A stretch of DNA of 53,727 bases from Oscillospiraceae bacterium (lineage in GTDB: Bacteria > Bacillota > Clostridia > Oscillospirales > Oscillospiraceae): contig JAFWQQ010000025.1 in NCBI GenBank assembly GCA_017545165.1, positions 1 to 53,727 of the forward strand, in the 5' to 3' direction. Below the pieces are notes generated by a model. That model had not been told where the DNA came from and made no database searches. It was given only the letters and a program-made list of their open reading frames with translations. Position numbers and translations under genes: made by a program. Below, piece by piece: positions 9,776-38,402 of the stretch (positions within the stretch are counted from its first letter, which is position 1; every line of letters begins with the position of its first letter).

Positions 9776-10888
9776 ATGAAATTCACCTGCGAGAAAGGAC
9801 TGCTGCAGGCAGCCTGCGCCACCGCCTCCCGCGCCACCGCCTCCAAGAGCCCCATCCCCGCCCTGGAGGGCCTGCTGATCGAGGGCAGAGGGGACGTAAA
9901 AATCACCGGCTATGACCTGAAGGAGGGCATCTATACCAATATTCAGGCCGATGTGAGCCAGGGCGGCTCTATCGTGGTGGGCGCCCGCTTCTTCGGCGAG
10001 ATGATCCGCCGCATGCCCGATGGGATCGTGACCTTGTCCACGGACAGCAACAACAGCGTCAAGGTCAAGTGCGGCAAGAGCGAGTTCAATTTCATGGGCA
10101 TCAGCGCCGAGGACTATCCGGAAATGCCGGTGCTGGATCCCATCAACACCATTTCCCTGCCCCAGAAGATCCTGCGCAGCATGATCAACCAGACCATCTT
10201 CGCCGTGGCGGACACCGACGTGCGCCCCATCTACACCGGCACTCTCTTTGAGGTGGAGGGGAATCAGCTGACTCTGGTCTCCGTGGACGGTTATCGGCTG
10301 GCCAAGCGCTGCGAGAAGCTGGAGAGCGCCAGAATGGAGAACTGCAGCTTCGTGGTGCCCGGCTCCGCTCTGTCGGATATCGAGCGCATCTGCGGCGATA
10401 CCGAGGATCCGGTGGAGATTTCCGTAGGCGCCAAGCACATCTCCTTCCTTATCGGGGAGACCGTGGTCATCTCCCGGCGGCTGGAAGGGGAATTCCTCAA
10501 CTATAAGCGCTCCATTCCGGAGATGTTCCGAACCATCGTCACCGTGGACCGGGGCGAGATCATGTCCGTCATCGACCGGGTGGCCCTCATCATCAGCGAG
10601 AAAAACAGCAGCCCCGTGCGCATGACCTTCGGGGACGGCAGCATCGACTGCCTGTGCATGACCCCCTTCGGCAAGGCGGAGGACCTCTGCACCTGCGAGG
10701 GCAGCGGCAACGGGCTGGAGATCGGCTTCAACGACCGCTATCTGATGGACGCCCTGAAGGCCGCCGGCGCCGACGAGCTGCAGATTTGCCTGAACACCGC
10801 CTCCTCCCCCTCCGTGATCCGGGCCTCCGACGGCAGCGACGGCTTCACCTATATGATCCTGCCCGTGAGATTGAGAGCGGGAGAATGA
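9776..10888 (+). CDS. dnaN: DNA polymerase III beta subunit (sliding clamp)
   Basis: 370 residues in three clamp domains; it forms the ring that tethers DNA polymerase to DNA. Family features include KSPIPALEGLLIEGRGD near residue 22, the DYPEMPVLD stretch near 115, LVSVDGYRLAKR near 165 and the C-terminal YMILPVRL, the usual end of the clamp. ATG 9776 follows GAGGAGG. The final codons GAA-TGA merge with the first unit of a GAATGAAG tandem array. The element that follows separates dnaN from yaaA by about 200 bp, longer than usual. Confidence 0.97.
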   Translation: MKFTCEKGLLQAACATASRATASKSPIPALEGLLIEGRGDVKITGYDLKEGIYTNIQADVSQGGSIVVGARFFGEMIRRMPDGIVTLSTDSNNSVKVKCGKSEFNFMGISAEDYPEMPVLDPINTISLPQKILRSMINQTIFAVADTDVRPIYTGTLFEVEGNQLTLVSVDGYRLAKRCEKLESARMENCSFVVPGSALSDIERICGDTEDPVEISVGAKHISFLIGETVVISRRLEGEFLNYKRSIPEMFRTIVTVDRGEIMSVIDRVALIISEKNSSPVRMTFGDGSIDCLCMTPFGKAEDLCTCEGSGNGLEIGFNDRYLMDALKAAGADELQICLNTASSPSVIRASDGSDGFTYMILPVRLRAGE

Positions 10889-11085
10889 AGGAATGAAGGA
10901 ATGAAGGAATGAAGAAATGAAGGAATGAAGAAATGAAGGAATGAAGAAATGAAGGGTCCTTCGGACCAATTGTGGTGTGCCGCTGCGCGGCACGGATTAT
11001 AATTCATCGCCGAAGGCGATACCAATATTTCTTCATTAGGCGAAGCCGAGCTTCATTTCTTCATTAGCGAAGCGTCTTCATTATT
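10881..11085 (+). repeat. Structured GAATGAAG-type intergenic element (copy 1)
   Basis: About nine GAATGAAG/AAATGAAG octamers (10883-10955) are followed by hairpin GTGCCGC-TGC-GCGGCAC, a GGATTATAATTCA linker and hairpin TCGCC-GAA-GGCGA. Next come TACCAATATTT and a 3' arm of CTTCATT-type repeats complementary to the 5' array. The whole can fold as one long stem with internal hairpins. It begins in the dnaN stop codon and ends just before the yaaA ribosome-binding site. Confidence 0.85.
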
Positions 11086-11100
11086 TTGAAAGGTATTTTT

Positions 11101-11313
11101 ATGGAAAAGATCACTATCCAAACCGAATATATCAAGCTGGACGCGCTTTTGAAGTACGCGTCTCTGGTAGGCACCGGGGGCGAGGCGAAGATGGCCGTCG
11201 CCGAGGGCCTGGTGAAGGTCAACGGCGAGGTGTGCACCATGCGGGGCAAGAAGATCCGTCCCGGGGACACGGTGAGCTTCGACCGCTTCGAGCTTCTGGT
11301 GGAGCAGGCATGA
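11101..11313 (+). CDS. yaaA: S4-domain RNA-binding protein YaaA (RlbA)
   Basis: A 70-residue single S4 RNA-binding domain: [18 protein letters not shown], then [20 protein letters not shown]. It belongs to the small YaaA family always found between dnaN and recF in Firmicutes; a ribosome or RNA-related role is assumed from the domain. ATG 11101 is preferred to the TTG at 11086, since GAAAGG lies between them. Its stop overlaps the recF start (ATGA at 11310-11313), suggesting translational coupling. Confidence 0.93.
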
Positions 11314-12413
11314 GAGTCAACAGGATCGCCCTGAACGGCTTTCGCAATTACGAGTGGGAGACGGCGGACTTTGCCCCCGGCACCAACGTGATCTGCGGGG
11401 CCAACGCCCAGGGAAAGACCAATCTGCTGGAGGCCGTATACATGCTCTCCTGCGGGCGCAGCTTCCGCACCCGCTATGACAGGGAGCTTCTCGGCTTCGG
11501 CTACAGCGAGGGACAGATCCTGGCGGAGATCTTCAGCCACGACCGGGACCAGACCGTGGACATCCGGCTGCGCGCCGGTCAGGCCAAGCGCATCACGGTC
11601 AACGGCGTGAAAAAAACCGCCGGGGAGCTGGCGGGCGCGGTGAACGTGGTGCTCTTCTGCCCGGACGATCTGAACCTCATCAAGGAGGGCGCGGCGGTGC
11701 GCCGGCGGCTGATGGACAACGCCATCTCCCAGATCCGCCCCCGCTACGCGGAGATTTTGACGGAGTTCAACCGGCTCTATGAGCACAAGACCCGGATCCT
11801 GCGGGACTGGCGGGAAAAGCCCAGTCTGCTGGACACCCTGGACGAGTTTTCCGACGGCATGGCCCGCTCTTCGGCCCAGCTGATCCGCTATCGGGCGGCT
11901 TACGCGGCCAGGCTCAACCAGGCGGCGCCGCCTATTCACCGGGAATTCTCCGGCAAGGGGGAGGAGCTGGCCATCGCCTATCAGACGGTGAGCACCGTGA
12001 AGGACCCCTGCGCCTCCGCCAGGGAGATCTATTACGACATCTGCGAGCACCAAGAGGCCCACCGCCAGGCGGAGCTGGACAGCGCCCAGTGCCTCACCGG
12101 CGCCCACAAGGACGATCTGGACATTCAGATCAATGGCCGCAGCGCCCGGAGCTTCGCCTCCCAGGGCCAGACCAGGACGGCGGCCCTGTCCATGAAGCTG
12201 GCTGAGCGGGAGATCCTCCACGCGGAGAGCGGGGAGATGCCCATCCTGCTGCTGGACGACGTGCTCTCCGAGCTGGATCAGAAGCGGCAGGAATTCGTCC
12301 TCAACCGCATCGGCGGCGGCCAGACCCTGATCACCTGCTGTGAGGACGCGGAAATCTCCCAGCGTACCGGCGGCCGGGTGCTGCTGGTGGAAAAGGGGCG
12401 GATCCGCGGATGA
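11310..12413 (+). CDS. recF: DNA replication and repair protein RecF
   Basis: 367 residues. An SMC-like ABC ATPase that loads RecA on gapped DNA in the RecFOR pathway. It starts [16 protein letters not shown], has Walker [18 protein letters not shown] near residue 31, and the ABC signature [16 protein letters not shown] near 283. The Walker B/D-loop segment is [16 protein letters not shown] near 312. ATG 11310 overlaps the yaaA stop and its own stop overlaps remB by ATGA, so the three genes are tightly coupled. The longer in-frame reading from 11232 lies inside yaaA and is rejected. Confidence 0.97.
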
Positions 12414-12679
12414 AATACCTGCATCTCGGCAAGGGCACTCTGGTGCGGGACGATGAAGTCCTGGGCATTTTCGACCTGGATATCACCTCCCAGAGCCACC
12501 TGACGCGAAAATTCCTCTCCATGGCGGACAAGGCGGGCAAGGTCGTCAACGCCGCCGAGGATATCCCCAAGTCCTTTGTGCTGTGCGAAGCCAAAGGCCG
12601 GACCCGGGTCTATCTGAGCCAGATGGCCAGCGCCACGCTGCTGAAGCGCGCCGAGGAGCGGACCCAGGTCACAGAGTAA
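12410..12679 (+). CDS. remB: DUF370/RemA-family matrix regulator RemB (YaaB)
   Basis: An 89-residue DUF370 protein, starting [19 protein letters not shown] with SFVLCEAKGRTRVYLSQM near residue 60. It corresponds to yaaB/remB, which follows recF in Bacillus. RemA/RemB proteins there are DNA-binding regulators of extracellular-matrix genes; that role is carried over by family. The start overlaps the recF stop (12410-12413). Compared with short RemB proteins it has an Arg/Glu-rich tail (KRAEERTQVTE). Confidence 0.88.
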   Translation: MKYLHLGKGTLVRDDEVLGIFDLDITSQSHLTRKFLSMADKAGKVVNAAEDIPKSFVLCEAKGRTRVYLSQMASATLLKRAEERTQVTE

Positions 12680-12955
12680 GAGAATCGTTCCGTCCTCCCG
12701 TCAAAGGGAGGAGTTCAGAGGGGGAACGCCTCTGATTTTCGCCTCGCAAGGCGAAAACAAAATAAAAATCTGTTTTTGACGGGGCTTTGCCTCGGCAAAA
12801 ACTCCCTGAGCCGAGCATGGCGACGCGCGGGAAACGTGCGACGATCCAAGCTCTGCTGCGAGGCCTCGCGCCGACCAACCGAAGGGCGATCAGCGCGAGT
12901 ATCCCTTCCTTGTTTCGCCCGTCAGGGCTGAACAAGGAACAGTTTTGGAGGAACT
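12680..12955 (+). other. remB-gyrB intergenic region with hairpins
   Basis: 276 bp without a credible gene. It contains hairpin TTTTCGCCT-CGCA-AGGCGAAAA (12736-12757) with A/T-rich flanks, a plausible terminator or attenuator. An imperfect hairpin near 12687-12727 pairs GTTCC with GGAAC and CCTCCC with GGGAGG. No convincing -35/-10 for gyrB was found. The gyrB ribosome-binding site is GGAGG shortly before 12956. Confidence 0.6.
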
Positions 12956-14887
12956 ATGGCAGACATTACGGAAAAAGTAACCCAGGAATACGACGCCTCT
13001 CAGATCCAGGTGCTGGAGGGGCTGGAAGCGGTGCGCAAGCGGCCGGGCATGTATATCGGCTCCACCTCTTCCTCGGGCCTGCATCACCTGGTCTATGAGA
13101 TCGTGGACAACTCCATCGACGAGGCCCTGGCGGGCTTCTGCACCCATATCGAGGTGAGCATCGAGGAGGGGGACGTGATCCGCGTCAGCGACAACGGCCG
13201 CGGCATCCCCGTGGACACCCAGGAGCAGACCGGAAAGTCCGCCCTGGAGGTGGTCTTCACCGTGCTCCACGCCGGCGGCAAGTTCGGCGGCGGGGGCTAC
13301 AAGGTCTCCGGCGGCCTCCACGGCGTGGGCGCCAGCGTGGTCAACGCCCTCTCCGAGTGGCTGGAGGTCCAGGTCCACAAGGACGGGAAGATCCACCAGA
13401 TGCGCTTCAGCCGGGGAGACATCACCCAGCCCATCACCGTGGTGGGCGAGACCGAGCGCACCGGCACCGTGGTCCGCTTCAAGCCGGATCCGGAGATGTT
13501 CGACGACACGGAATACGACTATGACATCCTGCACACCCGCATGCGGGAGCAGGCCTTCCTCAACGGCGGCCTCACCATAACCCTGGCCGACCAACGCCCG
13601 GGCCGGGAGCAGAGCGAGACCATGTGCTACGAGGGCGGCATCCGGGAGTTCGTGCGCTACCTGAACAAGCACAAGAACCCTATCCACGACGAGGTCATCT
13701 ACCTCTCCGGCGCCAAGGGGGACGCTGTAGCGGAGATTGCCCTGCAGTACAATGACGGCTTCAACGAGACCCTGGTCTCCTTCGCCAACGACATCCACAC
13801 CCCCGAGGGCGGCATGCACGAGACCGGCTTCAAGACCGCGCTGACCCGGGTCATCAACACCTACGGCCAGAAGAACAACATCATCAAGGGGGACGACAAG
13901 GTCTCCGGCGAGGACGTGCGGGAGGGCATCTCCGCCGTCATCTCCGTGAAGCTGCCCGAGGCCCAGTTCGAGGGCCAGACCAAGCAGAAGCTGGGCAACG
14001 CCTACATCCGCACCCTGGTGGACGGCATCGTCAACGACCAGCTGGCGGTGTACTTCGAGGAACACCCCCAGGCGGCCAAGGCCATCCTGGAGAAGGCCAT
14101 GATGGCCAACCGGGCACGGGAAGCCGCGCGGAAGGCCCGGGAATCCGTCCGGCGCAAGACCGGGCTGGAGAGCGGCCAGATGCCAGACAAGCTGCAGGAC
14201 TGCAACGAGCGGGACCCCTCGCTGTGCGAGATCTACATCGTGGAGGGCGACTCCGCCGCCGGCTCCGCCATCCAGGGACGGGACAGCCGCTTCCAGGCCA
14301 TCCTGGCCATGTGGGGCAAGATGCTGAACGTGGAGAAGGCCCGGGCTGACAAGATCTACGGCAACGACAAGCTCTATCCCCTGATCGTGGCCCTGGGGGC
14401 CGGCATCGGGGACGAGTTCAATATGGAAAAGCTCCGCTATCACAAGATCATCATCATGGCCGATGCTGACGTGGACGGCAGCCACATCCGGACCCTGCTG
14501 CTGACCTTCTTCTTCCGCTATATGCGGCCCCTCATCGAAAACGGCTATGTCTACTCCGCCGTGCCGCCCCTCTACAAGCTGCAGCGGGGCAAACAGCAGC
14601 GGGTGGCCTATTCCGACGAGCAGCGGGATGCGATCAGCGCCGAAATGCGGGGCGACAACCCCAACGTGAAGATCGACATCTCCCGCTTCAAAGGCCTGGG
14701 CGAGATGGACCCCCACGAGCTGTGGGAGACCACCATGGACCCGGAAAAGCGCTCCCTGCGCCGCATCACCCTGAACGACGCCATCCTGGCCGACCAGGTC
14801 TTCACCGTGCTCATGGGCGAAGAGGTGGAGCCGAGACGGGACTGGATCGAGCAGAACGCAAAATACGTGGTGAATTTGGATATTTAA
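12956..14887 (+). CDS. gyrB: DNA gyrase subunit B
   Basis: 643 residues. ATPase subunit of gyrase (GHKL plus transducer plus TOPRIM domains). It has [17 protein letters not shown] near residue 18, [13 protein letters not shown] near 48, DNGRGIPVD near 80 and [15 protein letters not shown] near 118. The TOPRIM block has [11 protein letters not shown] near 427 and [16 protein letters not shown] near 503. The ending is ARYVVNLDI-like, with no large C-terminal insert. Pairing with gyrA 145 bp downstream, and the GyrA box in that partner, distinguishes it from ParE. ATG 12956 follows GGAGGAAC. A repeat element separates it from gyrA. Confidence 0.97.
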
Positions 14888-15018
14888 TGAATACTGAAAA
14901 CTGAAGAATGAATACAGAAGAATTATTGTATCACGCCGAAGGCGTGATGAATGAAAATTCGTCGCCGAAGGCGACACCATAATTATTCATTATTCATTAT
15001 TCATTTTTCATTCTTCAT
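14884..15018 (+). repeat. Structured intergenic element (copy 2) between gyrB and gyrA
   Basis: It starts at the gyrB stop with degenerate GAATGAATAC/GAAGAATGAA units. Hairpins ATCACGCC-GAA-GGCGTGAT and GTCGCC-GAA-GGCGAC follow, then ACCATAATTATT and three TTATTCA heptamers with TTCATTCTTCATT. It ends six bases before GGAGG of gyrA. The core ACACCATAATT matches copies 4 and 5 closely. Confidence 0.85.
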
Positions 15019-15032
15019 TTCCGGAGGATATT

Positions 15033-17534
15033 ATGGCACATAAACGAGACTACAAACCCGAGGATATCGCCTTCCCCAACCAGGTGATCACCGAGTCGGA
15101 GCTGGTGCAGGAGATGCAGACCAGCTATATCGACTACGCCATGTCCGTCATCGTGGGCCGGGCCCTGCCCGACGTGCGGGACGGGCTGAAGCCGGTGCAC
15201 CGGCGCATTCTCTATACCATGTACGAGGGCAACCTGACCTCGGACAAGCCCTTCAAGAAGTCCGCCACCTGCGTGGGCGACGTACTGGGTCACTACCATC
15301 CCCACGGCGACGCCTCCGTGTACGACGCCATGGTGCGTCTGGCCCAGGACTTCTCCATGCGCTATATGCTGGTGGACGGCCACGGCAACTTCGGCTCCGT
15401 GGACGGGGATCCCCCCGCCGCCTACCGCTATACCGAGGCCAGACTCTCCAAGATCTCCAACGAGATGCTGCGGGATATCGACAAGGAGACCGTGGACTGG
15501 GACCCCAACTTCGACGAGAGCCGGAAGGAGCCCCGGGTGCTCCCCTCCCGCTTCCCGAACCTGCTGGTCAACGGCTCCAGCGGCATCGCCGTGGGCATGG
15601 CCACCAATATCCCGCCCCACAACCTGCGGGAGGTCATCAACGCCTGCGTCTGCGTGCTGGACGATCCCGAGGCCACGCTCTATGACCTGATGCAGCACAT
15701 CACCGGGCCGGATTTCCCCACCCGGGGCATCATCATGGGCCGCAGCGGCATCCGCCAGGCCTACGCCACCGGCCGGGGCAAGGTGGTGGTCCGGGCCCGG
15801 ACCGAGTTTGAGGAGCACGGCCAGGGCCGCACCCGCATCATCGTGACGGAGCTGCCCTATCAGGTCAACAAGCGCCAGCTCATCAAGAACATCGCCGACC
15901 AGGTGCGGGAGAAGCGCCTGGAGGGCATCTCCGACCTGCGGGACGAGACGGACCGCAACGGCATGCGCATGGTCATCGAGCTGAAGCGGGACGCCAATCC
16001 CCAGGTGGTGCTGAACCGGCTTTTCGCCCAGACCCAGCTCCAGACCAGCTTTTCCATCAACATGCTGGCCCTGGTGAACAACCAGAGCCAGCCCAAGATC
16101 CTGTCCCTGCGGCATATCCTGGACGAGTATCTCACGTTCCAGGAGGAGGTCATCGTCCGCCGCACCCGCTACGACCTGCGCAAGGCCGAGGAGCGGGCCC
16201 ACCTGCTGGAGGGCCTGCTGATCGCCCAGGACAATATCGACGAGGTCATCCGTATCATCCGCAGCAGCTACGACGACGCCAAGCAGAACCTGATGGAGCG
16301 CTTCAAGCTGTCCGATGTGCAGGCCCAGGCCATCTGCGACATGCGCCTCATCGCCCTGCAGGGCCTGAACCGGGAGAAGCTGGAGCAGGAGTACAAGGAT
16401 CTGGAGGTCAAGATCGCCTATTACAAGGAGCTGCTGGCGGATCCGGAGAAGATCAAGGCCGTCCTCAAGGACGAGCTTTTGCAGCTGCGGGACAAGTACG
16501 GCGACGAGCGCCGCACCGAGATCCAGGACGTGGAGGATGAGATCGACATGGAGGATCTCATCGAGGAGGAGGAGTGCGTCTTCACCCTGACCCACGGCGG
16601 CTATATCAAGCGTCTGCCGGTCAGCGAGTACCGGACCCAGGGCCGGGGCGGCAAGGGCATCCGGGCCATGGCCACCAAGGAGGAGGACTATGTGGACACG
16701 GTGTTCACCGCCTCCACCCACGACCATATCCTCTTCTTCACCAGCAAGGGCAAGGTCTTTATCAAGAAAGGCTACAATATTCCCGAGGCGGGACGGAACG
16801 CAAGGGGCGCCAATATCATCAATATCATACAGATCGACGCCGGCGAGAAGGTCAGCGCCATGATCCGGGGCCGCGGCCTGGAGGAGGAGAACTATCTCTT
16901 CTTCGTCACCCGCAAGGGCACCGTCAAGCGCATGAGCCAGGGAGCCCTGCGCAACATCCGCTCCAACGGCATCCGGGCCCTGAACCTGGACGAGGGGGAC
17001 GAGCTCATCACCGTGCTGCAGACCATGGGGGACGAGAACATCCTCATCGCCACCCACGACGGCATGTCCGTCTGCTTCGACGAAAACGACGTGCGCCCCA
17101 TGGGCCGCACCGCCGTTGGCGTCCGGGGCATCCGCCTGCGCCCCGGCGACTATGTGGTGGGCGCCGGCAGCACCTACGGCGGCGAGGCCCTGCTCTCCAT
17201 CACGGAGAAGGGCTACGGCAAGCGCACCGCCGTGGAGGAGTACAGCGTCCACGGCCGGGGCGGTCTGGGCATCCGCAACTACAACGTCACCGAGCGCACC
17301 GGCCCCGTGGCCGACGTGAAGATGGTCAATCCCGGCGAGGATCTTCTGGTCATCTCTGACGACGGCACCATCATTCGCATGGCGGTGGACAACATCTCCC
17401 TGCTGGGCCGGGCCACCCAGGGCGTGCGGGTCATGCGCCTGATGGAGGGCAGCCGGGTCATCTCCATCGAGAAGACCGGACGCGTGGTGGAAGAGGCCGC
17501 CGAGACCGAGACCGAGGGCGGCGAAGAAGAATAA
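15033..17534 (+). CDS. gyrA: DNA gyrase subunit A
   Basis: 833 residues. DNA cleavage/rejoining subunit of gyrase. It has [20 protein letters not shown] near residue 29, [18 protein letters not shown] near 80 (the quinolone-determining region) and [13 protein letters not shown] near 130 with the catalytic tyrosine. The C-terminal beta-pinwheel carries the GyrA box QGRGGKG near 536, required for supercoiling and absent from ParC. It ends in an acidic tail (TETEGGEEE). ATG 15033 follows GGAGG. It is probably cotranscribed with gyrB and the short downstream membrane gene. Confidence 0.97.
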
Positions 17535-17564
17535 ACCGAGCAAAGACGAAAAGGAGGAGCGCAT

Positions 17565-17918
17565 ATGGAAGGCCTTGTAGTATTGATCCTGGTATTTTGG
17601 GTCCTGCCGGCCATTCTTAAGAAGGCCAAGGGCAAGCAGCAGAGCCAGCAGAAGAGCGGGCAAAACGCCCGGGCCGCCGCCCAGCGGCGGACGCCGACCG
17701 TGGAGCTGCACAGGCCCGCGCCGTCGATGAATCGCGCGGCCCACCGGCAGTTTACCGTGCCGGACGCTCCCTGCATCGTCTGCGAGAACACCGGGGAGGA
17801 CCACTTTCAGCGGGATAAGGCCCGCCGGATCGCCCAGCTGGACGAGTGGCTGAAAAACGGCCTCATCGACCGCAAGGAGTACCTGGTGCTGAAGGACCGC
17901 TACCAGCGGGGGATCTAA
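17565..17918 (+). CDS. Small membrane protein with C-terminal SHOCT-like motif
   Basis: 117 residues, function unknown. It has one N-terminal membrane segment (about 3-18, GLVVLILVFWVLPAI), a basic Gln/Ala/Arg-rich linker (20-45) and a short segment with a CIVC pair near residue 69. The C-terminal helical motif (about 85-117) reads RIAQLDEWLKNGLIDRKEYL. This is SHOCT-like (short C-terminal domain linking helices in many bacterial membrane proteins). ATG 17565 has AAAAGGAGGAGC upstream and lies 30 bp after gyrA, so cotranscription is likely. The SHOCT assignment is by pattern only. Confidence 0.72.
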   Translation: MEGLVVLILVFWVLPAILKKAKGKQQSQQKSGQNARAAAQRRTPTVELHRPAPSMNRAAHRQFTVPDAPCIVCENTGEDHFQRDKARRIAQLDEWLKNGLIDRKEYLVLKDRYQRGI

Positions 17919-18318
17919 AGGAATGAAGGAATGAAGGAATGAAGGAATGAAGGAATGAAGGAATGAAAACCCCTTCCGGCCTCGCCGCAAGCGGCTCAGC
18001 AGCTGTCCGCCTTGCGGTACCCGAAAAATGCTGCGGGCGTACGCTCTTCCTTGCATTTTTCGACCGCTGCGGAAATTCCGGGCTCGCTTCATCTGCCACC
18101 GGCAGCGCGAGCCCGCAATTCCCCCAAAGGGGGAGGCAAGACGCGGCCTTGTTTCCCGAGAGGGAGGCAAGAGGCGGCCTTGCTTCCCCCTTAGGGGGAA
18201 GTCCCCAGTGCGCACACTGGGGAATAGGGGGAATTTCAATCCGTCGCGCAGCGACACCACAATTTCTTCATTTCTTCACTAGCGAAGCGTCTTCATTTCT
18301 TCATTCGCAAAGCGAGCT
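17917..18318 (+). repeat. Composite intergenic repeat region (copy 3) between convergent genes
   Basis: About 400 bp without a gene. It begins at the stop of the SHOCT-like gene with six GGAATGAA octamers (17920-17966) and a GCCGCAAGCGGC hairpin. Then come GGGGGAGGCAAGACGCGGCC-type units and a CCCCAGTG-CGCA-CACTGGGG hairpin (18203-18222). It ends with GTCGCG-CA-GCGAC, ACCACAATTTC and CTTCATT-type repeats reaching the gltX stop. It looks like a type-B element with another repeat family inserted. Confidence 0.75.
18203..18222. repeat. CCCCAGTG hairpin repeat
   Basis: Eight-base stem CCCCAGTG/CACTGGGG with loop CGCA. Identical copies lie at 29504-29523 and 29680-29699, and an inverted, slightly diverged copy at 21159-21177. 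Confidence 0.85.
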
Positions 18319-19803
18319 TCATTTCTTCAGCTTTTCCAGACCGATGCGCAGGCGGCGGAGCGTCTCGTCCCGGCCCAGGATGCGGCAGATCTCCACCGCG
18401 CCGCCGGGGGTCACGGCCTTGCCGGCGGCGGCGATGCGCACCGGCCACATGACCTTGGCGTTCTTCACGGCCAGCTCCTCGGCCAGCTTGACCATGCAGT
18501 CCAGGATGTGCTCGTCGTCCCAGCTCTCCAGAGCCTCGAAGCGGGGGATCACCAGAGCCAGGATCTCCCGGGCGCTCTCCTCGTCAGACTTGGACTTTTT
18601 GTGCACGAAAAGCTCCGTGCCGTATTCCGGCAGCTCGTCGAAGAAGTCCAGCTTTTCCGGGATCTCCGTCAGCACCTCGGTGCGCTGCTGCAGGAGTCCT
18701 GCGACGGCGGCGGCGTCGATGGCCGGGTTTTTCACGGCCCGGCGGATCCAGGGCTCGGCCACCCGGGCAAAGGCCTCGGCGCTCATGCGGCGGATATACT
18801 CGGCGTTGAAGTAGCGCAGCTTCTCGATATCGAAGATGGCGGGGGACTTGGAGATGCCGGACATCTCAAAGGCCTCCTTCAGCTCCTCCAGGGAGAAGAT
18901 CTCCTGCTCCGCCTGCTCGCCCTTGGGGCTCCAGCCCAGCAGGGCCACATAGTTCAGCACCGCGTCCGTCAGGAAGCCCTGGGCGATCAGATCCTCATAG
19001 GAGGGGTCGCCGTGGCGCTTGGACATCTTGTTGTGGGCGTCCCGCATGACGGGGGAGCAGTGGACATACTTGGGGATGTCCCAGCCGAAGCCCTGATACA
19101 GCAGATTGTACTTGGGCGCGGAGGCCAGGTACTCGCTGCCCCGGACCACGTGGGTGATGCCCATGAGGTGGTCGTCCACCACGTTTGCGAAGTTGTAGGT
19201 GGGCAGGCCGTCCCGCTTCATCAGCACCTGGTCGTCCAGGCTGCTGTTGTCCACGGTGATGTCGCCGTAGATCTCGTCATGGAAGGTGGTGCTGCCCTCC
19301 TCGGGGATCTTCTGACGGATGACGAAGGGCTCGCCCGCCTGAGCTCTGCGATCGGCCTCGTCCTTCGAGAGGCTGCGGCAGGGATCGGCGGCCCGGTTAA
19401 AGTCTCCGGCGTCCTCCTCGCTCTCGGTCTTCTCGCAGAAGCAGCGGTAGGCGTGGCCCCGCTCCACCAGCAGCTCCGCGTACTTTCCGTAGAAGGGGCG
19501 GCGCTGGGTCTGCACATAGGGGCCCACGGGGCCGCCCACATCCGGGCCCTCGTCGTGGTCCAGGTGGCACTCGGCCATGGTCTTGTAGATCACGTCCACC
19601 GCGCCCTCCACCAGACGGCCCTGGTCGGTGTCCTCAATGCGCAGCAGGAACTTGCCGCCGTAATGCCGGGCGATCAGCCAGGTGTAGAGGGCTGTGCGAA
19701 GATTGCCCACGTGCATGTAGCCGGTGGGCGAGGGGGCAAAGCGGGTGCGCACCTCGTTTTTGGGAATGCGCGCCTCCATCTCATCAAACCAGGTCATATC
19801 CAT
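18319..19803 (-). CDS. gltX: Glutamyl-tRNA synthetase
   Basis: 494 residues, class I aminoacyl-tRNA synthetase that charges tRNA-Glu (and possibly tRNA-Gln in the transamidation route). The HIGH-type motif is FAPSPTGYMHVGNLRTALY near residue 22. The KMSKS-type motif is KMSKRHGDPSYEDLI near 258. A helical anticodon-binding domain follows. Three nearby ATGs are in frame; 19803 is chosen because GGAAGGAG (19811-19818) gives a 7-base spacing, while 19809 is too close and 19797 a little far. It is transcribed from a near-consensus promoter at 19948-19976, divergent from trpS. Confidence 0.95.
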   Translation of the reverse strand: MDMTWFDEMEARIPKNEVRTRFAPSPTGYMHVGNLRTALYTWLIARHYGGKFLLRIEDTDQGRLVEGAVDVIYKTMAECHLDHDEGPDVGGPVGPYVQTQRRPFYGKYAELLVERGHAYRCFCEKTESEEDAGDFNRAADPCRSLSKDEADRRAQAGEPFVIRQKIPEEGSTTFHDEIYGDITVDNSSLDDQVLMKRDGLPTYNFANVVDDHLMGITHVVRGSEYLASAPKYNLLYQGFGWDIPKYVHCSPVMRDAHNKMSKRHGDPSYEDLIAQGFLTDAVLNYVALLGWSPKGEQAEQEIFSLEELKEAFEMSGISKSPAIFDIEKLRYFNAEYIRRMSAEAFARVAEPWIRRAVKNPAIDAAAVAGLLQQRTEVLTEIPEKLDFFDELPEYGTELFVHKKSKSDEESAREILALVIPRFEALESWDDEHILDCMVKLAEELAVKNAKVMWPVRIAAAGKAVTPGGAVEICRILGRDETLRRLRIGLEKLKK

Positions 19804-23864: not shown

Positions 23865-23872
23865 TCGTGGAT

Positions 23873-24000
23873 AGTTCGTAGTTCGTAGTTCGCAGTTCGC
23901 AGTTCGTAGAACACCGTTCTGAGTTAGGAGTGTGGAGGATGATTGAAAACCGTACTGGTTTTCGGCAAACTCTGTTCACTGTTCACTGTTATCTGTTCAC
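23873..24000. repeat. Two heptanucleotide arrays (AGTTCGT and TGTTCAC)
   Basis: Five AGTTCGT/AGTTCGC units at 23873-23907, and four TGTTCAC-type units (one degenerate, TGTTATC) at 23973-24000. Between them is about 65 bp with a short AAAACCGTACTGGTTTT hairpin (23946-23962). Located between convergent genes. Confidence 0.8.
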
Positions 24001-24015
24001 TTTTTCCGCGTCGCC

Positions 24016-29203: not shown

Positions 29204-29207
29204 GAGC

Positions 29208-29240
29208 AATTCGGAATTCGGAGTTCGGAATTCGGAATTG
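29208..29240. repeat. AATTCGG heptanucleotide array
   Basis: Four AATTCGG/AGTTCGG units (29208-29235) directly after the pyrophosphatase stop codon, ending AATTGG. Self-complementary because of the GAATTC cores. Confidence 0.85.
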
Positions 29241-29267
29241 GAAAAGACAGAACGACAGGAAAGAACG

Positions 29268-29298: not shown

Positions 29299-29503
29299 TT
29301 CGTGCCCACGTTCGTCTCGCGCCCGCCGTCTCACGCACGTAGGGGTCGACGTCCTCGGCGCCTGCCGTCTCGCGAAAACGCCCCGTCCACGCCGTAGGGG
29401 AGGGGCTTGCCCCTCCCGCGTCCCGCGCCGACGTCCCGTTCTGCGCCGTAGGGGCGTCCCTTGCGGCCGCCCGCCTCAGCCTTCCCCGCGCACGGGGGAG
29501 CTG

Positions 29504-29523
29504 CCCCAGTGCGCACACTGGGG
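29504..29523. repeat. CCCCAGTG hairpin repeat
   Basis: Identical to 18203-18222. Confidence 0.85.
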
Positions 29524-29679
29524 CGGATGAGGTCCCCGCGCCGGCCCCTGCGCGAGGACGCTCCGTTCCGCGCTGAGGCTTCGTTACCCGCCGTAGGGGC
29601 CGACGCCCGGCCCGCGTATTCCTCCCTCTGTCACGGCGCTTGCGTGAGACGCGCGTTGGCTCCCTCATCGAGGGAGCAG

Positions 29680-29699
29680 CCCCAGTGCGCACACTGGGG
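29680..29699. repeat. CCCCAGTG hairpin repeat
   Basis: Identical to 18203-18222; flanked by CTCCCTCATCGAGGGAG and CTGAGGGAG. Confidence 0.85.
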
Positions 29700-29919
29700 C
29701 TGAGGGAGTCTGACCCGCGCACCTCCTTCAAAGAGGGAGGCATAACGCACCGCCGTCCCATCTCCCGCCGTAGGGGCGGCCTTGGTCGCCCGCCGTCCCG
29801 CGCCCGCCGCTGTCTTGTTCCGCGGCGGGCTTTGCACGTCCCGGGGGAAAATGGTCGGACAGCATAGGAAAAGATGTCGGAGCCCCAGGATTTTTGTCAA
29901 GTTTTCGGGCAGTTTTCCC

Positions 29920-29948
29920 TTGAAAGAGCATGCCGATTTTGGTATGAT
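29920..29948 (+). promoter_or_regulatory. Promoter of the V-ATPase operon
   Basis: TTGAAA (29920-29925), 17 bp and TATGAT (29943-29948), about 60 bp upstream of the first operon gene. Confidence 0.82.
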
Positions 29949-30011
29949 GTTATGCGGCAGTTTATATTTGATTCTTTGCTGTTGAGCTTAGTATGAGAAG
30001 GGGGTGTGCCA

Positions 30012-30326
30012 ATGTCATTGGAAGCGATCACGAGCGTGACGACTGCGGAGCAGGAGGCCAAAAACGCCGTCGCCGCCGCCCAGGCCCAGGCCAGGCAGCT
30101 GCTGGCTGACGCCCAGGCGGCCGGGGAAGCCTCGCTGGAGGCGGCCCGCGAAAAGGCGGAGAGCGAGCTGGAGGTCCTGCGCGCCCGGGCCCAGGAGAAG
30201 AGCAAGGCGGATACCGAGGCTCTGAACCGTCGGCTGGAGGAGGAGCGGAATGCTCTTCGCCGGAAAGCGGGCGCCAAGCTGGACGCAGCGGCAGCGCTCA
30301 TTGTGGAAAGGATAGTGAAGGACTGA
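30012..30326 (+). CDS. ntpH: V-type ATP synthase subunit G/H (peripheral stalk)
   Basis: 104 residues, almost entirely alpha-helical and Ala/Glu/Lys/Arg-rich (TTAEQEAKNAVAAAQAQARQ), as in the AhaH/NtpF-type stalk subunit that pairs with subunit E. Position as first gene before subunit I supports the call. ATG 30012 sits 7 bases after a GGGGG tract; an in-frame GTG at 30006 is possible. It ends one base before the subunit I start. Confidence 0.8.
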   Translation: MSLEAITSVTTAEQEAKNAVAAAQAQARQLLADAQAAGEASLEAAREKAESELEVLRARAQEKSKADTEALNRRLEEERNALRRKAGAKLDAAAALIVERIVKD

Positions 30327-30327
30327 C

Positions 30328-32316: not shown

Positions 32317-32324
32317 ACAAGACC

Positions 32325-33016
<692 letters not shown>

Positions 33017-33035
33017 GCACAGATAGGAGCAAGGT

Positions 33036-33623
33036 ATGAAAGGCACTGAAAAAATCATCGCGCACATCCGGGCCGACGCCAAGGCGCAGGTCGACGCGAT
33101 CCTTGCTCAGGCCGAGCAGCAGTGCGCGGGCATCCGGGGCGATTACGACAAGAAGGCCGCCGCGCTCTATGCCGAGCGGCTGCGTGCCGGCGTGAAGGAG
33201 ACCCAGGACCAGGTGGACGGCGTGGAGCGCATCGCCCGCATGGAGGGCCGCAAGGCCATGCTGGCTGAGAAGCAGAGCCTGGTGGCGGACAGCTTCCGGA
33301 GAGCGCTGGAGAAGATCGTAAACCTCCCGGAGGACAAGTATCTGCTCTTCCTGGCGAAGCTGGCGGCTCAGGCCTCCGTCTCCGGCGATGAGGAGATCAT
33401 CCTCAACCCCAGGGACCGCCAGCGCCTCGGCGAGAAGCTGGTGAAGGCTGTCAACGCCCTGGTGCCCCAGGGAAAGCTGACGCTCTCCCCGGAGACCCGG
33501 GACATCGCCGGCGGCCTGTTCCTGCGCCGCGGCAGCATTGAAGCCAACTGCAGCGCGGAGCTGCTGGTGGAGCTGAGCCAGAGCGAGCTTTCCGCCAAGG
33601 TCGCTGAGACCCTGTTTCAGTGA
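33036..33623 (+). CDS. ntpE: V-type ATP synthase subunit E (peripheral stalk)
   Basis: 195 residues. The N-terminal long helix is Ala/Gln/Lys-rich (IIAHIRADAKAQVDAILAQA), and the C-terminal globular domain ends GGLFLRRGSIEANCSAELLV. The GG-x-x-x-x-x-G-x-I-x-x-N motif is typical of AtpE/NtpE, which pairs with the H subunit as the peripheral stalk. ATAGGAGCAAG precedes ATG 33036, 20 bp after subunit K. Confidence 0.92.
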   Translation: MKGTEKIIAHIRADAKAQVDAILAQAEQQCAGIRGDYDKKAAALYAERLRAGVKETQDQVDGVERIARMEGRKAMLAEKQSLVADSFRRALEKIVNLPEDKYLLFLAKLAAQASVSGDEEIILNPRDRQRLGEKLVKAVNALVPQGKLTLSPETRDIAGGLFLRRGSIEANCSAELLVELSQSELSAKVAETLFQ

Positions 33624-33646
33624 TCCCCGGATCGGGAGGGAGAACA

Positions 33647-34639
33647 TTGGCTAAGAAAAAAGAAGCGTATCTGAGCTTGTCCGCCATGCTGCGCGCCCGG
33701 GAGCCCAAGCTGCTGAATGCGGAGCGGGCCGGGCGGATGCTGGAGGCGTCCTCCTTCGAGGAGGCTGCCAAGCTCCTGACCGACTGCGGCTATCCGGATC
33801 TTTCCCAAGCCACGGCCGGCCAGATCGAACAGACCCTGACCCAGCGGCGCGTCCAGGCCCTGGACGAACTGGAAAAGCTGTGCCCCGAGCGGGCGATCGT
33901 GGACTTCTTCCGCATCAAGTACGACGCCCACAACGCCAAGGTCCTGCTGAAGGCGGAGGCCATGGGCACGGACGCCTCGTCGCTCTTCAGCGGCGCCGGC
34001 CGCATCGCGCCGGAGAAGCTGCAGGAGGCCTGGCAGGAGGAGCGCCTGAGCGAGCTGCCCAAGCGTTTCGGCGAGGCGCTGCTGGAGGCCAGGAATACCC
34101 TGGCCCGCACCGCCAATCCCCAGCTTTCGGACTTCGTGCTGGACCGCGCCATGTTTGAGGAGATGCTGGACGCCGCCAGAATTGCGGACTGTCCCTTCCT
34201 CACGGGCTACGCCAGACTGCTCATCGACAGCTGCAACCTGAAGAGCCTGGTGCGCACCGCGCGCATGCACAAGGACGCGGACTTCCTGGGGGAGGTGCTG
34301 CTGCCCGGCGGCGGCGTGGATCGGGATCGGCTGCTGGCGGCCGGTGAGGGCGAGGGCTTTGCCGCTCTCTTTGCCCACAGCCCCCTGGAAAAGGCGGCGG
34401 CCCTGGGCGCCGAGGCGCTGGAGGGCGGCAGCATGACCGCCTTCGAGCGCGCCTGTGACGACGGGGTGAACGCCTATCTGCGTGCGGCCAAGCTGGTGAG
34501 CTACGGCCCCGAGACCGTGGCGGCCTATCTTGCCGCTGTGGAAGGCGAGATCACCGCCGTGCGCATGATCCTCACGGGCAGGCTTTCCGGCATCGCGCCG
34601 GAGGCCATCCGGGAAAGGCTGCGTGATCTGTATGCTTAA
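33647..34639 (+). CDS. ntpC: V-type ATP synthase subunit C (ring-to-stalk adaptor)
   Basis: 330 residues, V-type C/d subunit that caps the K ring and receives the central stalk. It is all-helical with IVDFFRIKYDAHNAKVLLKA near residue 84 and RLLIDSCNLKSLVRTARMHK near 193. The start is TTG 33647 (LAKKKEAYLSL), with GGGAGGGAG optimally placed; the upstream GTG at 33620 overlaps the subunit E stop and lacks a ribosome-binding site. A TTG start for a core gene is unusual but recurs in subunit D. The 3' end overlaps subunit F by 8 bp. Confidence 0.9.
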   Translation: MAKKKEAYLSLSAMLRAREPKLLNAERAGRMLEASSFEEAAKLLTDCGYPDLSQATAGQIEQTLTQRRVQALDELEKLCPERAIVDFFRIKYDAHNAKVLLKAEAMGTDASSLFSGAGRIAPEKLQEAWQEERLSELPKRFGEALLEARNTLARTANPQLSDFVLDRAMFEEMLDAARIADCPFLTGYARLLIDSCNLKSLVRTARMHKDADFLGEVLLPGGGVDRDRLLAAGEGEGFAALFAHSPLEKAAALGAEALEGGSMTAFERACDDGVNAYLRAAKLVSYGPETVAAYLAAVEGEITAVRMILTGRLSGIAPEAIRERLRDLYA

Positions 34640-34952
34640 GATTGCAGTGATTGGAGGACGGGAGACCGTCATGGGCTTCAAGGCCCTGGGGCTGGAGACC
34701 TGGCCCGCCGCCTCGGCGGAGGAGGCCGGCCGGATCCTCAGGAGCCTCACCCGAGAGCACGACGACTACGCCATCATTTATATCGAGGAAAACTTCGCGG
34801 CCCAGCTGAGCCACGAGATCGACCGCTTCAAGGACAGTCCCACCCCGGCCATCATCCTGATCCCGGGACGGGAGGGCCCCCTGGGCCTGGGGCAGAACGC
34901 CCTGCGCTCCGCGGTGGAGCGGGCCGTCGGCACCAATATCCTGGGAGACTGA
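34632..34952 (+). CDS. ntpF: V-type ATP synthase subunit F (central stalk)
   Basis: 106 residues. It starts MLKIAVIGGRETVMGFKALG, the Rossmann-like motif of V/A-ATPase F subunits, then YAIIYIEENFAAQL near 48 and PAIILIPGREGPLG near 72. With D it forms the central rotor stalk. The ATG overlaps the subunit C stop; the upstream in-frame GTG 34623 is an alternative start adding three residues. It is followed by a repeat element, not directly by subunit A. Confidence 0.9.
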   Translation: MLKIAVIGGRETVMGFKALGLETWPAASAEEAGRILRSLTREHDDYAIIYIEENFAAQLSHEIDRFKDSPTPAIILIPGREGPLGLGQNALRSAVERAVGTNILGD

Positions 34953-34965
34953 GAAAAGTGAAAAG

Positions 34966-35080
34966 ATAATAGTGAACAGTGAACAGTTGCGGTGTGCCGC
35001 TTCGCGGCACGGATTGCAATCTGTTTCCCGAAGGGAAACTCCATAATTATTCATTATTCATTATTCATTATTCATTTTCT
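34966..35080 (+). repeat. Structured intergenic element (copy 4) between ntpF and ntpA
   Basis: Two AGTGAAC heptamers (34971-34984), hairpin GTGCCGC-TTC-GCGGCAC, the linker GGATTGCAATCTG and hairpin GTTTCCC-GAA-GGGAAAC. Then CTCCATAATTAT and four TTATTCA heptamers (35047-35074). The second hairpin differs from the GTCGCC-GAA-GGCGAC of copies 2 and 5 at paired positions. Confidence 0.87.
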
Positions 35081-35115
35081 TCTCCCAAACATATCAACGA
35101 GAGGAAGTTTGAACC

Positions 35116-36885
35116 ATGAGCGGAACTATTACCAAAGTATCCGGCCCGCTGGTGGTGGCCGAGGGCCTGGCGGACGCCAACGTCTCCGACGTGGTGCGCG
35201 TGGGCTCTCAGCGCCTGATCGGCGAGATCCTGAATATGACCGGCGACACTGCCTCCATCCAGGTCTATGAGGAGACCTCCGGCCTGGGACCCGGCGCCGC
35301 GGTGGAGACCACGGGCATGCCCCTGTCCGTGGAGCTGGGCCCCGGCATGCTGGACAATATCTATGACGGCATTCAGCGCCCCCTGCCCGAGATGCGCGCC
35401 CTCACCGGGGACTGCATCACCCGCGGCACCGACGTGAAGGCCCTGAACCGCCAGAAGAAGTGGGACTTTGTGCCCGTGGCCAAGGTGGGCGACAAGCTGG
35501 CGCCCGGCGACGTGCTCGGCACCGTCCAGGAGACCACGGCCATCCTCCACAAGATCATGGTGCCCTACGGCGTCAAGGGCGAGGTCACCTTCCTGGCCGG
35601 CGGCCTGCACACCGTGGACGAGGTTGTCGCCGCCATCCGGGACGAGAAGGGCAAGACCCATGAGCTGACCATGATCCAGCGCTGGCCCGTGCGTATCGCC
35701 CGGCCCTACACCCGCAAGTATGTGCCCAGCCGCCCCATGAACAGCGGACAGCGCATCATCGACACCCTGTTCCCCATTGCCAAGGGCGGCACCGCCGCCG
35801 TCCCCGGCCCCTTCGGCTCCGGCAAGACCGTGGTGCAGCACCAGCTGGCCAAGTGGTCTGACGTGGACATCGTCATCTACATCGGCTGCGGCGAGCGCGG
35901 CAACGAGATGACGGACGTGCTGATGGAGTTCCCCGAGCTGAAGGACCCCCGCAACGGCGAGCCTCTGATGAAGCGCACCGTGCTGATCGCCAACACCTCC
36001 GACATGCCGGTGGCGGCCCGCGAGGCCTCCATCTACACCGGCATCACCATCGCCGAGTACTTCCGGGACATGGGCTACGACGTGGCCGTCCTGGCCGACT
36101 CCACCTCCCGCTGGGCCGAGGCCCTGCGCGAGATGTCCGGCCGTCTGGAAGAGATGCCCGGCGAAGAGGGCTACCCCGCCTACCTGGCCTCCCGTCTGGC
36201 TCAGTTCTATGAACGGGCCGGCGTGGTGGAGTGCCTGGGCTCCGACGACCGCCAGGGCTCCGTCACCGCCATCGGCGCCGTGTCCCCTCCGGGCGGCGAT
36301 ATTTCCGAGCCCGTGGCCCAGGCCACCATGCGCATCGTCAAGGTCTTCTGGGCCCTGGACTCCAGCCTGGCCTACGCCCGTCACTTCCCGGCCATCAACT
36401 GGCTGACCTCCTACTCCCTGTATCTGGACACCCTGACTCCCTGGTACACCAAGCAGTTCGGCGAGGGCTACATGCGCAACCGCGCCAAGGCCATGCAGAT
36501 CCTGCAGGAGGAGAACGAGCTGCAGGAGATCGTCCGTCTGGTGGGCCAGGACGCCCTGAGCCCCGCGGACCGTCTCACCATGGAGACCGCCAAGAGCATC
36601 CGCGAGGACTTCCTGCAGCAGAACGCCTTCGTGGATGAGGACGCCTATTCCTCCTACCTGAAGCAGTATAAGCTGATGGACCTGGTGCTGCGCTTCGACA
36701 CCCTGTGCCGGGACGCGCTGCAGAAGGGCGCCGATATGGAAAAGCTCTTCACCATTCCCTCCCGGGAGCGGGTGGGCCGCGCCAAGATGGCCGACGCCAA
36801 GGTCTTCGAGACCGAGTTTGCCGAGATCGAGGCGCAGATGAAGCGCGAGATCGAAGAAGTCATTGCCGGAGGTGAGGACGAATGA
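35116..36885 (+). CDS. ntpA: V-type ATP synthase subunit A (catalytic)
   Basis: 589 residues, the ATP-hydrolysing/synthesising subunit. Walker A is [17 protein letters not shown] near residue 234. [16 protein letters not shown] near 258 follows, and Walker B with the [20 protein letters not shown] region is near 330-350. The non-homologous insertion typical of A subunits (about 110-190) is present. ATG 35116 follows GAGAGGAAG. Directly coupled to subunit B, whose ATG overlaps its TGA. Confidence 0.97.
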
Positions 36886-38258
36886 TCAAAGAGTATAAAA
36901 CCATCCGCGAGATCGCGAGCCCTCTGATGATCGTGGAGCACGTGGAAGGCGTCACCTACGACGAGCTGGGCGAGATCGAGCTGCCCAGCGGCCAGAAGCG
37001 CCGCTGCAAGGTGCTGGAGGTGGAGGGCGACCGGGCTGTGGTACAGCTCTTCGAGTCCGCCCAGGGCATCAACCTGGCGGAATCCAAGGTCCGCTTCCTG
37101 GGTCACCCCCAGCAGCTGGCCGTTTCCGAGGACATGCTGGGCCGCGTCTTCAACGGTATGGGCGAGCCCATCGACGGCGGCCCTGCCATCCTGGCCGACG
37201 CCCACAAGGACATCAACGGCCTGCCCATGAACCCCGCCGCCCGGGCCTATCCCGCCGAGTTCATCCAGACCGGCGTGAGCACCATCGACGGCCTGAACAC
37301 CCTGGTCCGCGGCCAGAAGCTGCCCATCTTCTCCGGCTCCGGTCTGCCTCATGCCGCCCTGGCCGCCCAGATCGCCCGTCAGGCCAGAGTCCTGGGGGAC
37401 AACGAGACCTTCGCCGTGGTCTTCGCCGCCATCGGCATCACCTTCGAGGAGTCCGAGTTCTTCATCAACGACTTCCGCCGCACCGGCGCCATCGACCGCA
37501 CCGTGGTCTTCTCCAACCTGGCCAACGACCCCGCCGTGGAGCGTATCGCCACCCCCCGCGTGGCCCTCACCGCCGCCGAGTACCTGGCCTTTGAGAAGGA
37601 CATGCAGGTCCTGGTCATCCTGACCGATATCACCAACTACGCCGAGGCCCTGCGTGAGGTTTCCGCCGCCAAGAAGGAGGTCCCGGGCCGCCGCGGCTAC
37701 CCCGGCTACCTGTACACGGACCTGGCCACCCTGTATGAACGAGCCGGCCGCCGGCAGGGCAAGAAGGGCTCCATCACCATGATCCCCATTCTGACCATGC
37801 CCGAGGACGACAAGACCCACCCCATCCCCGACCTGACCGGCTACATCACCGAGGGCCAGATCATCCTGAGCCGGGACCTGCACCGCAAGGGCATCGTCCC
37901 GCCGGTGGACGTGCTGCCCTCCCTGAGCCGTCTGAAGGACAAGGGCATCGGCGTGGGCAAGACCCGCGAGGACCACGCCGGCACCATGAACCAGCTCTTC
38001 GCCGCCTACTCCCGCGGCAAGGACGCCAAGGAGCTGATGACCATCCTGGGCGAGGCCGCCTTGAGCGAGGACGACAAGCTCTTTGCCAAGTTCGCCGATG
38101 AGTTCGAGCGCCGCTACGTCAGCCAGGGCAACAGCACCAACCGCTCCATCCAGGAGACCCTGGATCTGGGCTGGGAGCTGCTGAAGATCCTGCCCCGCCG
38201 CGAGCTCAAGCGCATCAAGCCCGAGATGATCGAGAAGTATCTGCCCAAAGAGGAATGA
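36882..38258 (+). CDS. ntpB: V-type ATP synthase subunit B (non-catalytic)
   Basis: 458 residues, regulatory nucleotide-site subunit alternating with A. It begins [20 protein letters not shown] and has [20 protein letters not shown] near 143, where A subunits have a P-loop; this confirms [19 protein letters not shown] near 273 follows. ATG 36882 overlaps the subunit A stop. Its last codons GAG-GAA-TGA run straight into the GAATGAAG-type array of element copy 5, so the stop is part of the repeat. Confidence 0.97.
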
Positions 38259-38402
38259 AGAAATGAAAGAATGAAGGAATGAAGAAATTGAGGAGTGCCG
38301 CGAAGCGGCACCGGATTGAAATCCGTCGCCGAAGGCGACACCATAATTTCTTCATGAGCGAAGCGTCTTCATTCCTTCACTAGCGAAGCGTCTTCATTTC
38401 AC
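38250..38402 (+). repeat. Structured intergenic element (copy 5) between ntpB and ntpD
   Basis: GAATGAAG/AAATGAAA octamers from the ntpB stop (to about 38285), hairpin GTGCCGC-GAA-GCGGCAC, the linker CGGATTGAAATCC and hairpin GTCGCC-GAA-GGCGAC. Then ACCATAATTTCTTCAT and two AGCGAAGCGTCTTCATT units. It ends 20 bp before the ntpD start. Confidence 0.87.

Follow-up and report, generated by a model that had tools for sequence, protein, structure and literature searches.

Cloverleaf repeats between genes of an Oscillospiraceae bacterium and their probable kinship with PF05635-gene elements

Introduction

Among the intervening sequences (IVSs) of 23S rRNA are short forms, of the Salmonella type, that lack an open reading frame (ORF). 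The Coxiella IVS is described, in passages of PMC4990558, as a 428-nt selfish element in helix 45 of the 23S rRNA that contains an S23p ORF, ends in terminal inverted repeats and is excised by RNase III. The same passages describe it as unclear where 23S rRNA IVSs come from and what they do, and treat the idea that the ORF aids mobility as an old hypothesis (PMC4990558). The PF05635 family resembles Avd of diversity-generating retroelements (DGRs) in sequence and structure, as set out in part of PMC10053308. Here we describe a family of intergenic repeats, the cloverleafs, from a 53,727-nt stretch of an Oscillospiraceae bacterium (contig JAFWQQ010000025.1 of assembly GCA_017545165.1; hereafter, the window), and propose that they are probably ORF-less miniatures of mobile elements that carry a PF05635 gene and are intergenic counterparts of 23S rRNA IVSs. 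The structural link between cloverleaf and PF05635 element is well supported; how the elements spread, and what part the protein plays, we infer.

Results

Four window copies share a three-hairpin core

An earlier note on the window had listed five copies of one structured element, and direct reading finds the sequences present at all five places (Table 1). The common plan holds for copies 1, 2, 4 and 5, and the remaining copy (17917-18318) is a long-core variant. In the four, tandem 7- or 8-bp units lead into AATTRTGGT, which varies, followed by hairpin 1, GGATnnnnATCC, hairpin 2, ACCATAATT and units complementary to the first. The repeats and hairpins 1 and 2 had been recognized before; to these we add a middle hairpin, GGAT-n4-ATCC, and an outer stem formed by AATTRTGGT and ACCATAATT, within which the three hairpins of the core are enclosed. 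Copies 1, 2, 4 and 5 fold far better than shuffled versions of themselves (z -4.9 to -6.3), and none of 200 shuffles reached the stability of the original. The minimum-energy fold of copies 2, 4 and 5 (from 14907, 34971 and 38270) is the outer stem around three hairpins; that of copy 1 (from 10948) differs from this cloverleaf and uses the extra GGTCCTTCGGACC hairpin sequence of that copy. A consensus fold computed from 12 copies is likewise the cloverleaf, with both-sided changes at 7 of 28 pairs. Rfam returned no match for the window at its gathering threshold, nor for four loci at E values up to 1.

Some PF05635 genes lie between the halves of a cloverleaf

In a relative, G072 (G and L numbers are our labels for genomes and loci), the gyrB-gyrA gap (L312) measures 599 bp and opens with a left arm of two TGAGGAATTAGGAA units, TTGTGGT, a hairpin and GATTGAAA, after which comes an ORF that is followed by TTAATC, a second hairpin, ACCTTAATT and the right arm; a second left-end-like stretch stands ahead of the ORF. 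The product belongs to PF05635, the 23S rRNA-intervening sequence protein family (104 bits), and to TIGR02436, four helix bundle protein, and its relatives in the PDB are 2rld (E 1.9e-30) and 2gsc (E 8e-4), with five chains each.

PF05635 occurs in 29 of 61 genomes of the genus and 53 of 148 of the class. The genus holds 55 PF05635 places, 50 of which were read by eye and 49 scored (one flank is under 80 nt), and 29 were scored class-wide; G064:C15, G058:C78, G051:C47:27760, G011:C7 and G053:C140 stand outside these statistics. Half-cores were seen by eye at 6 of the 50 loci, on both sides in L308, L312, L314, L335 and L339 and on the right only in L310 (G074). L314 (G044, before a gene reading as glpK) and L335 (G059) are the same site with different sequence, which brings the half-core sites to five; L339 and L308 both come from G075. 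In the five two-sided loci the gene occupies one and the same point of the core, the middle hairpin, with a half-core on each side, and all five genomes with half-core loci also have cloverleaf matches. With the gene removed in silico and the halves joined, the arm stem of L339 encloses a cloverleaf fold; L308, L314, L335 and L312 regain the arm stem, but around an interior unlike the consensus. The gyrB-gyrA gap of G075 is intermediate, with both halves and 68 nt between them. The genome of the window itself (G000) has a PF05635 gene with 8-mer arms (L329) whose end, TTCATCAGCGAAGCGTCTTCATT, is one base off copies 1 and 5, and which is without half-cores.

The arms recur well beyond the half-core loci. 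Arrays of period 7 or 8 stand beside 30 of 49 PF05635 genes in the genus and 10 of 29 in the class, compared with 2 of 40 control genes, whereas other periods (5, 6, 9-12) were found at 0/49, 2/29 and 2/40, respectively. Flanks that pair as inverted arms across the gene show the same pattern (23/49 genus, 7/29 class, 1/40 control), and the excess of arrays and of paired flanks over the control is supported by Fisher p values of 1e-8 and 8e-7. The element had earlier been said to resemble nothing that could be named exactly; this no longer holds, because similar period-7/8 arms and, at six loci, the half-cores flank PF05635 genes. At one PF05635 position present in eight genomes (L298-L301, L303, L304, L306, L307), between genes that we take to be dgt and dnaG, five different arm units are found (TAGTTCG, TAGTTTT, TAGTTTC, CGCTTAG and TAGTGCG), and the arms therefore appear to evolve in concert.

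A second architecture exists for the same gene family. At L317, L320, L321, L330, L332, L334, L336 and L343-L345, PF05635 genes without heptamer arms sit behind clusters of small hairpins spaced by words of the ATGATGT, GAATTG and ATTTCAT type.

Cloverleafs are dispersed through the genome, the genus and other Clostridia

In the genome a 21-base core pattern, CGCCGAAGGCGAYACCAHAAT, is matched exactly 12 times and its reversed control never, which marks the repeat as more than chance. A covariance model, R1, was built from 12 copies, with window copies 1, 2, 4 and 5 among them; these four hence match it by construction, and copy 3 (17917-18318) is unmatched at E<=0.01. The search for further copies that the earlier note had proposed was productive: in G000 (2.4 Mb), with 150 of 1168 first-look candidates scored, the model has 59 matches at E<=0.01, corresponding to 34 distinct places, as many matches are one place read on both strands of an element that is nearly its own reverse complement. 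Across the genus, matches at E<=1e-4 occur in 21 of 61 genomes, a count that takes in G000, with 1 to 71 matches each, and an overlapping set of 40 genomes contains seven with matches at E<=0.01, again counting G000, one of them from another family. One exact pattern was found in 36 stretches of named genomes, whose titles are all of Clostridia type (Ruminococcus, Oscillospiraceae, Clostridia metagenome-assembled genomes (MAGs) and R. albus AR67). Cloverleafs are a real and mobile-looking repeat family, whose members have presumably moved. Carriage by phages or plasmids was considered and rejected: viral contigs have no match to the one exact core pattern searched, phage records none to copy 5 and plasmid records none to copy 4.

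Orthologous gaps differ in length and in the copies that occupy them

Two sites were surveyed in a set of 50 relatives. The dnaN-yaaA gap is 30 nt or shorter in 25 of 44 readable relatives and the gyrB-gyrA gap in 28 of 48 (13 nt in G006 and G048), and the elements are therefore no fixed parts of these operons. By a lag-7/8 score, arrays fill seven dnaN-yaaA gaps and three gyrB-gyrA gaps; many other long gaps hold other palindromic repeats. Coreless hairpins and gene-less solo arrays also occur, as do gaps held by different copies in several species.

A close relative, G054 (GyrB 99% identical), shares the ntpB-ntpD copy with G000, the 166-bp gap that holds copy 5 being identical in the two. 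At three other sites long cores replace the short ones of G000, and BLAST finds a fourth. One G054 site is a chimera in which an 8-mer 5' arm and a long core are joined to a 7-mer 3' arm end common to G000. In copy 3, hairpin 1 is replaced by an insert of about 260 nt of another repeat type, and similar long cores are also present at L008, L010, L193, L102, the G054 dnaN-yaaA gap and the G054 site found by BLAST. Among five orthologous pairs that were scored, two align better inverted (81.5 vs 48.5; 76 vs 55), two direct and one neither way; the pair L158/L126 gave the visual impression of an inversion, which its score did not bear out.

Other repeats occupy the same gaps. In the ntpB-ntpD gap of G048 (L118) a palindromic element of about 200 bp is inserted within the stop codon TAA; TA is apparently duplicated and the stop is kept, and G006 has the corresponding empty site. 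In the gyrB-gyrA gaps of G054, G050, G065, G041, G068 and others, a CCCCTCAGTC..GACAGCTCCCC..GGGGAGC repeat family ends in TATAAGGAAGGA or similar and hence seems to carry its own ribosome-binding site. The same gap in G061 (L261) holds a small GIY-YIG ORF between copies of a GTCATCCTGAGCGAAGCGAAGGATCTT repeat, which may represent a third repeat family that has its own gene-bearing form.

Placement and orientation favour action at the DNA level

Gene context was assessed for 64 copies from loci at hand, 31 of them from G000 and 33 from other genomes, with genes called by a codon-usage script. Excluded were weaker-strand duplicates, L123 (copy 5 in G054), weak matches in L193/L194 and three G000 places (C8:48676, C60:6017 and C30:2491); orthologous copies were kept, and the 64 are to that extent non-independent. 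None of the 64 lies inside a called gene and all occupy gaps between protein genes, with 53 of 61 typed gaps codirectional compared with 141 of 188 background gaps (p 0.04). The tie to essential operons proposed in the earlier note is accordingly not specific, and placement within such operons looks incidental. That note had also observed that copies point the same way as the gene upstream, which is true of the window but not in general, as element and gene strand agree in 28 of 53 codirectional gaps (7-mer copies were assigned to the strand that scored better, an assignment that can be ambiguous). Folding of the transcribed strand is no more stable than that of the complementary one (mean difference +0.6 kcal/mol, Wilcoxon p 0.29, n=53).

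A script located 115 hairpins in these copies, of which 113 are closed by a C-G pair and 110 have 3-nt loops, 93 of the latter being of GNA or TNC type; the copies counted are mutually related and the counts stand without a random-hairpin control. C-GNA-G is the motif found in DNA minihairpins of extraordinary stability (GCGAAGC). The absence of orientation and folding-strand bias, together with these loop types, favours action at the DNA level over a cis RNA function.

Anatomy of the window

The 5' arm of copy 1 consists of GAATGAAG units (10883-10955) followed by the hairpin GGTCCTTCGGACC, its 3' arm is built with TTCATTAGCGAAGCGTC units, and its first repeat contains the dnaN stop codon TGA. 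Copy 2 has the 5' arm TGAATAC TGAAAAC TGAAGAA and copy 4 has GTGAACA units on its 5' side, and both have (ATTATTC)n on the 3' side. The neighbouring genes named in the earlier note agree with NCBIfam, in which the ORF at 17565-17915 has no match. The AATTCGG unit of one solo array is also the arm unit of PF05635 genes in L313, L316 and L333.

Table 1. Cloverleaf copies and solo heptamer arrays in the window.
Feature	Position	Strand	Class or unit	Site	Details
Copy 1	10882..11084	+	8-mer	dnaN-yaaA gap	core 10948-11037
Copy 2	14888..15020	+	7-mer	gyrB-gyrA gap	core 14907-14992
Copy 3	17917..18329	+	long-core variant		5' arm (AAGGAATG)n, hairpin 2 TCGCGCAGCGA, 3' arm
Copy 4	34953..35076	+	7-mer	ntpF-ntpA gap	core 34971-35056
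Copy 5	38253..38398	+	8-mer	ntpB-ntpD gap	core 38270-38356
Solo array	89..120	.	GTTCACT		without core
Solo array	23872..23909	.	TAGTTCG		
Solo array	23972..24004	.	CTGTTCA		94% complementary to copy 4 5' arm
Solo array	29208..29243	.	AATTCGG		directly after a stop codon
Solo array	39118..39165	.	TCGTAGA		

Three further repeats were observed in the window: a 54-bp tandem repeat at 39182-39526 with six copies, each with GTAGGGGAGGGGCTTGTCCCCTCCCG hairpins; an inverted repeat at 42302-42470 with 31-nt arms that are 84% complementary at a spacing of 107 nt; and a 42-bp repeat array at 48791-50935 (17 register copies) in a region open for long ORFs.

Discussion

We consider it probable that cloverleafs are ORF-less miniatures of PF05635-gene elements. 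The long form would run from an inverted period-7/8 arm through a left half-core (AATTATGGT, a triloop hairpin and GATT) to the gene for the four-helix-bundle protein, and from there through a right half-core (AATC, a triloop hairpin and ACCATAATT) into the other inverted arm. If this form is ancestral, deletion of the gene would bring its two halves together at the middle hairpin, leaving a cloverleaf. Spread may then proceed by a copying or insertion event at the DNA level, probably of a single-strand hairpin, with the PF05635 protein helping in trans. Short operon gaps would tolerate insertion directly downstream of stop codons, and copies would for that reason settle there, after which the inverted arms and hairpins may evolve in concert via template switching and gene conversion. 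The distribution of the gene fits the proposal: PF05635 is present in 16 of the 21 genomes with cloverleafs and in 13 of the other 40 (p 0.0025, kinship of genomes ignored).

Several observations weigh against this proposal. Five of the 21 cloverleaf genomes, MAGs that are 73-88% complete, have no PF05635 match, while 13 of the 40 genomes without model matches carry the gene. Forty-four of 50 genus loci are without a half-core, and 19 of 49 genes are without an array at threshold, several of them beside other hairpin clusters. The 40 control genes come from loci of REP-associated tyrosine transposases (RAYTs; REP, repetitive extragenic palindromic sequence) only and replaced a first set of six genes, two of which had arrays. 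Arrays and paired flanks also occur at genes of the relatives' gyr and ntp loci (21/190 and 6/190) and of the window (13/43 and 0/43), both sets having been chosen for such sites. Neither a transposition event, a target-site duplication nor a within-species empty site was seen at flanks that are too diverged. The genomes compared in the co-occurrence tests are related and phylogeny was uncorrected, and RAYT co-occurs with cloverleafs more strongly than PF05635 does.

This last point bears on the idea that RAYT mobilises the cloverleaf as an inverted hairpin pair, in the manner of REP doublets forming hairpins (REPINs); the alternatives considered here are not all mutually exclusive. The RAYT profile (A3) has matches in 19 of the 21 genomes with cloverleafs and in 14 of the other 40 (p 3e-5, under the same restriction), and the inverted-pair architecture and hairpins of single-stranded DNA type also speak for this idea. 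Physical linkage is nevertheless missing: cloverleafs (R1, E<=0.01) occur in 2 of 37 RAYT loci (L241, L248), compared with 1.4 predicted in 101.5 kb from the density in G000 (34 per 2.4 Mb). Many of the RAYT loci read sit among GTAGGG-type REPs, which are another repeat family, several RAYT genes hold REP-like segments in frame, and G065 and G075 have cloverleafs with no RAYT match. We therefore reject RAYT as the mobiliser, a role for which we see only a small probability.

The in-frame segments are an observation of their own: RAYT genes at L174, L175, L177, L178, L179, L184 and others contain RRGDPCGRP- and VGAAISRPP-type segments apparently encoded by their own GTAGGGGCGACC..GGTCGCCCG REP, that is, by a REP inserted in the RAYT gene.

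Alternatively, no dedicated mobility is involved, and recombination, gene conversion and template switching at replication suffice for the spread and turnover of ancient hairpin arrays. Chimeric copies (site B of L143 against G054), inversions, coreless and solo arrays and the occupation of one gap by different copies in several species would all fit, but a copy number that ranges from zero to dozens within one genus, and the fact that over half of the relatives have short gaps at the same sites, require a way to new sites, and we hold this explanation to be improbable. Heptamer hairpins could also be preferred landing sites into which PF05635 genes merely insert, as gene-less coreless hairpins and solo arrays might suggest; five loci in which the gene sits at one same core point between half-cores speak against this, and we give it little credence. 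An operon-internal RNA signal under selection (a terminator, an attenuator or an RNase III processing site) is very improbable: RNA folds are strong, 7 of 28 pairs change on both sides and IVSs are described in part of PMC4990558 as RNase III substrates, but orientation is random (28/53), the transcribed strand is no more stable, over half of the relatives have short gaps at the two sites surveyed, Rfam gives no match, and copies 4 and 5 have no terminator-like site within the region scanned. An autonomous transposon with ordered heptamer ends was rejected, since TGAATACTGAAAACTTAAG, at up to two mismatches, matched 5 of 15 genomes with no clear end pair around a gene; one such match (L218) adjoins a PF05635 gene.

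Should the miniature reading of cloverleafs be correct, gene-bearing, intermediate and gene-less intergenic forms within one genus make the old question of IVS spread testable, and period-7 arrays between genes of many Clostridia gain a possible explanation. A broader and more tentative conjecture, which we think has perhaps a modest chance of being right, is that PF05635 proteins are mobility factors of widespread Clostridia hairpin elements, of which 23S rRNA IVSs would be the rRNA-resident branch; as relatives of Avd they may enlist, in trans, a reverse transcriptase or polymerase, with period-7/8 arms as a signature of templated slippage. If true, this would account for class-wide heptamer arrays between genes. 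We found no description of the heptamer-armed intergenic form, the cloverleaf miniature, the PF05635 link or the Clostridia period-7 arrays in the open-access literature, subscription papers being outside the scope of the search.

Comparison with known systems

The claim that the element is unlike simple REPs, in that its arms are built of short tandem repeats, is upheld for what is a dispersed, structured intergenic family, and several described systems share some of its features. Cyanobacterial short tandemly repeated repetitive (STRR) sequences and small dispersed repeats form period-7 arrays between genes; cloverleaf arms are period-7 intergenic arrays as well but are made of other units, and for STRRs we know of no inverted arms, core or PF05635 link. 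REPs and REPINs with RAYT are likewise inverted hairpin pairs, intergenic and present in many copies. They have a conserved GTAG-type head ahead of the hairpin, whereas the cloverleaf has tandem arms, the head AATTRTGGT in place of GTAG and no RAYT linkage, the frequency at RAYT loci being near expectation. Miniature inverted-repeat transposable elements (MITEs) are, like cloverleafs, short, ORF-less and present in many copies with inverted ends, and gene-bearing relatives with the same ends exist here too (L308, L312, L314, L335, L339); unlike MITEs, however, the cloverleaf long form is without a known transposase. The flanks are too diverged for a target-site duplication to show.

The Avd proteins of DGRs are akin to PF05635 in sequence and structure, as part of PMC10053308 sets out. 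A close comparison is with 23S rRNA IVSs, for which passages of PMC4990558 likewise describe inverted terminal repeats as a stem, a PF05635 ORF in long forms and a patchy distribution. A long stem from terminal inverted repeats is present here (in 23 of 49 gene-bearing forms), as is the PF05635/S23p ORF in long forms. Location within 23S rRNA (helix 9, 25 or 45) is not, all 64 copies lying in intergenic gaps. Cloverleafs further differ in numbering up to dozens per genome, in arms of tandem 7-8 bp units and in a three-hairpin core. As they lack the defining location, the window elements are best described as IVS-like rather than as IVSs.

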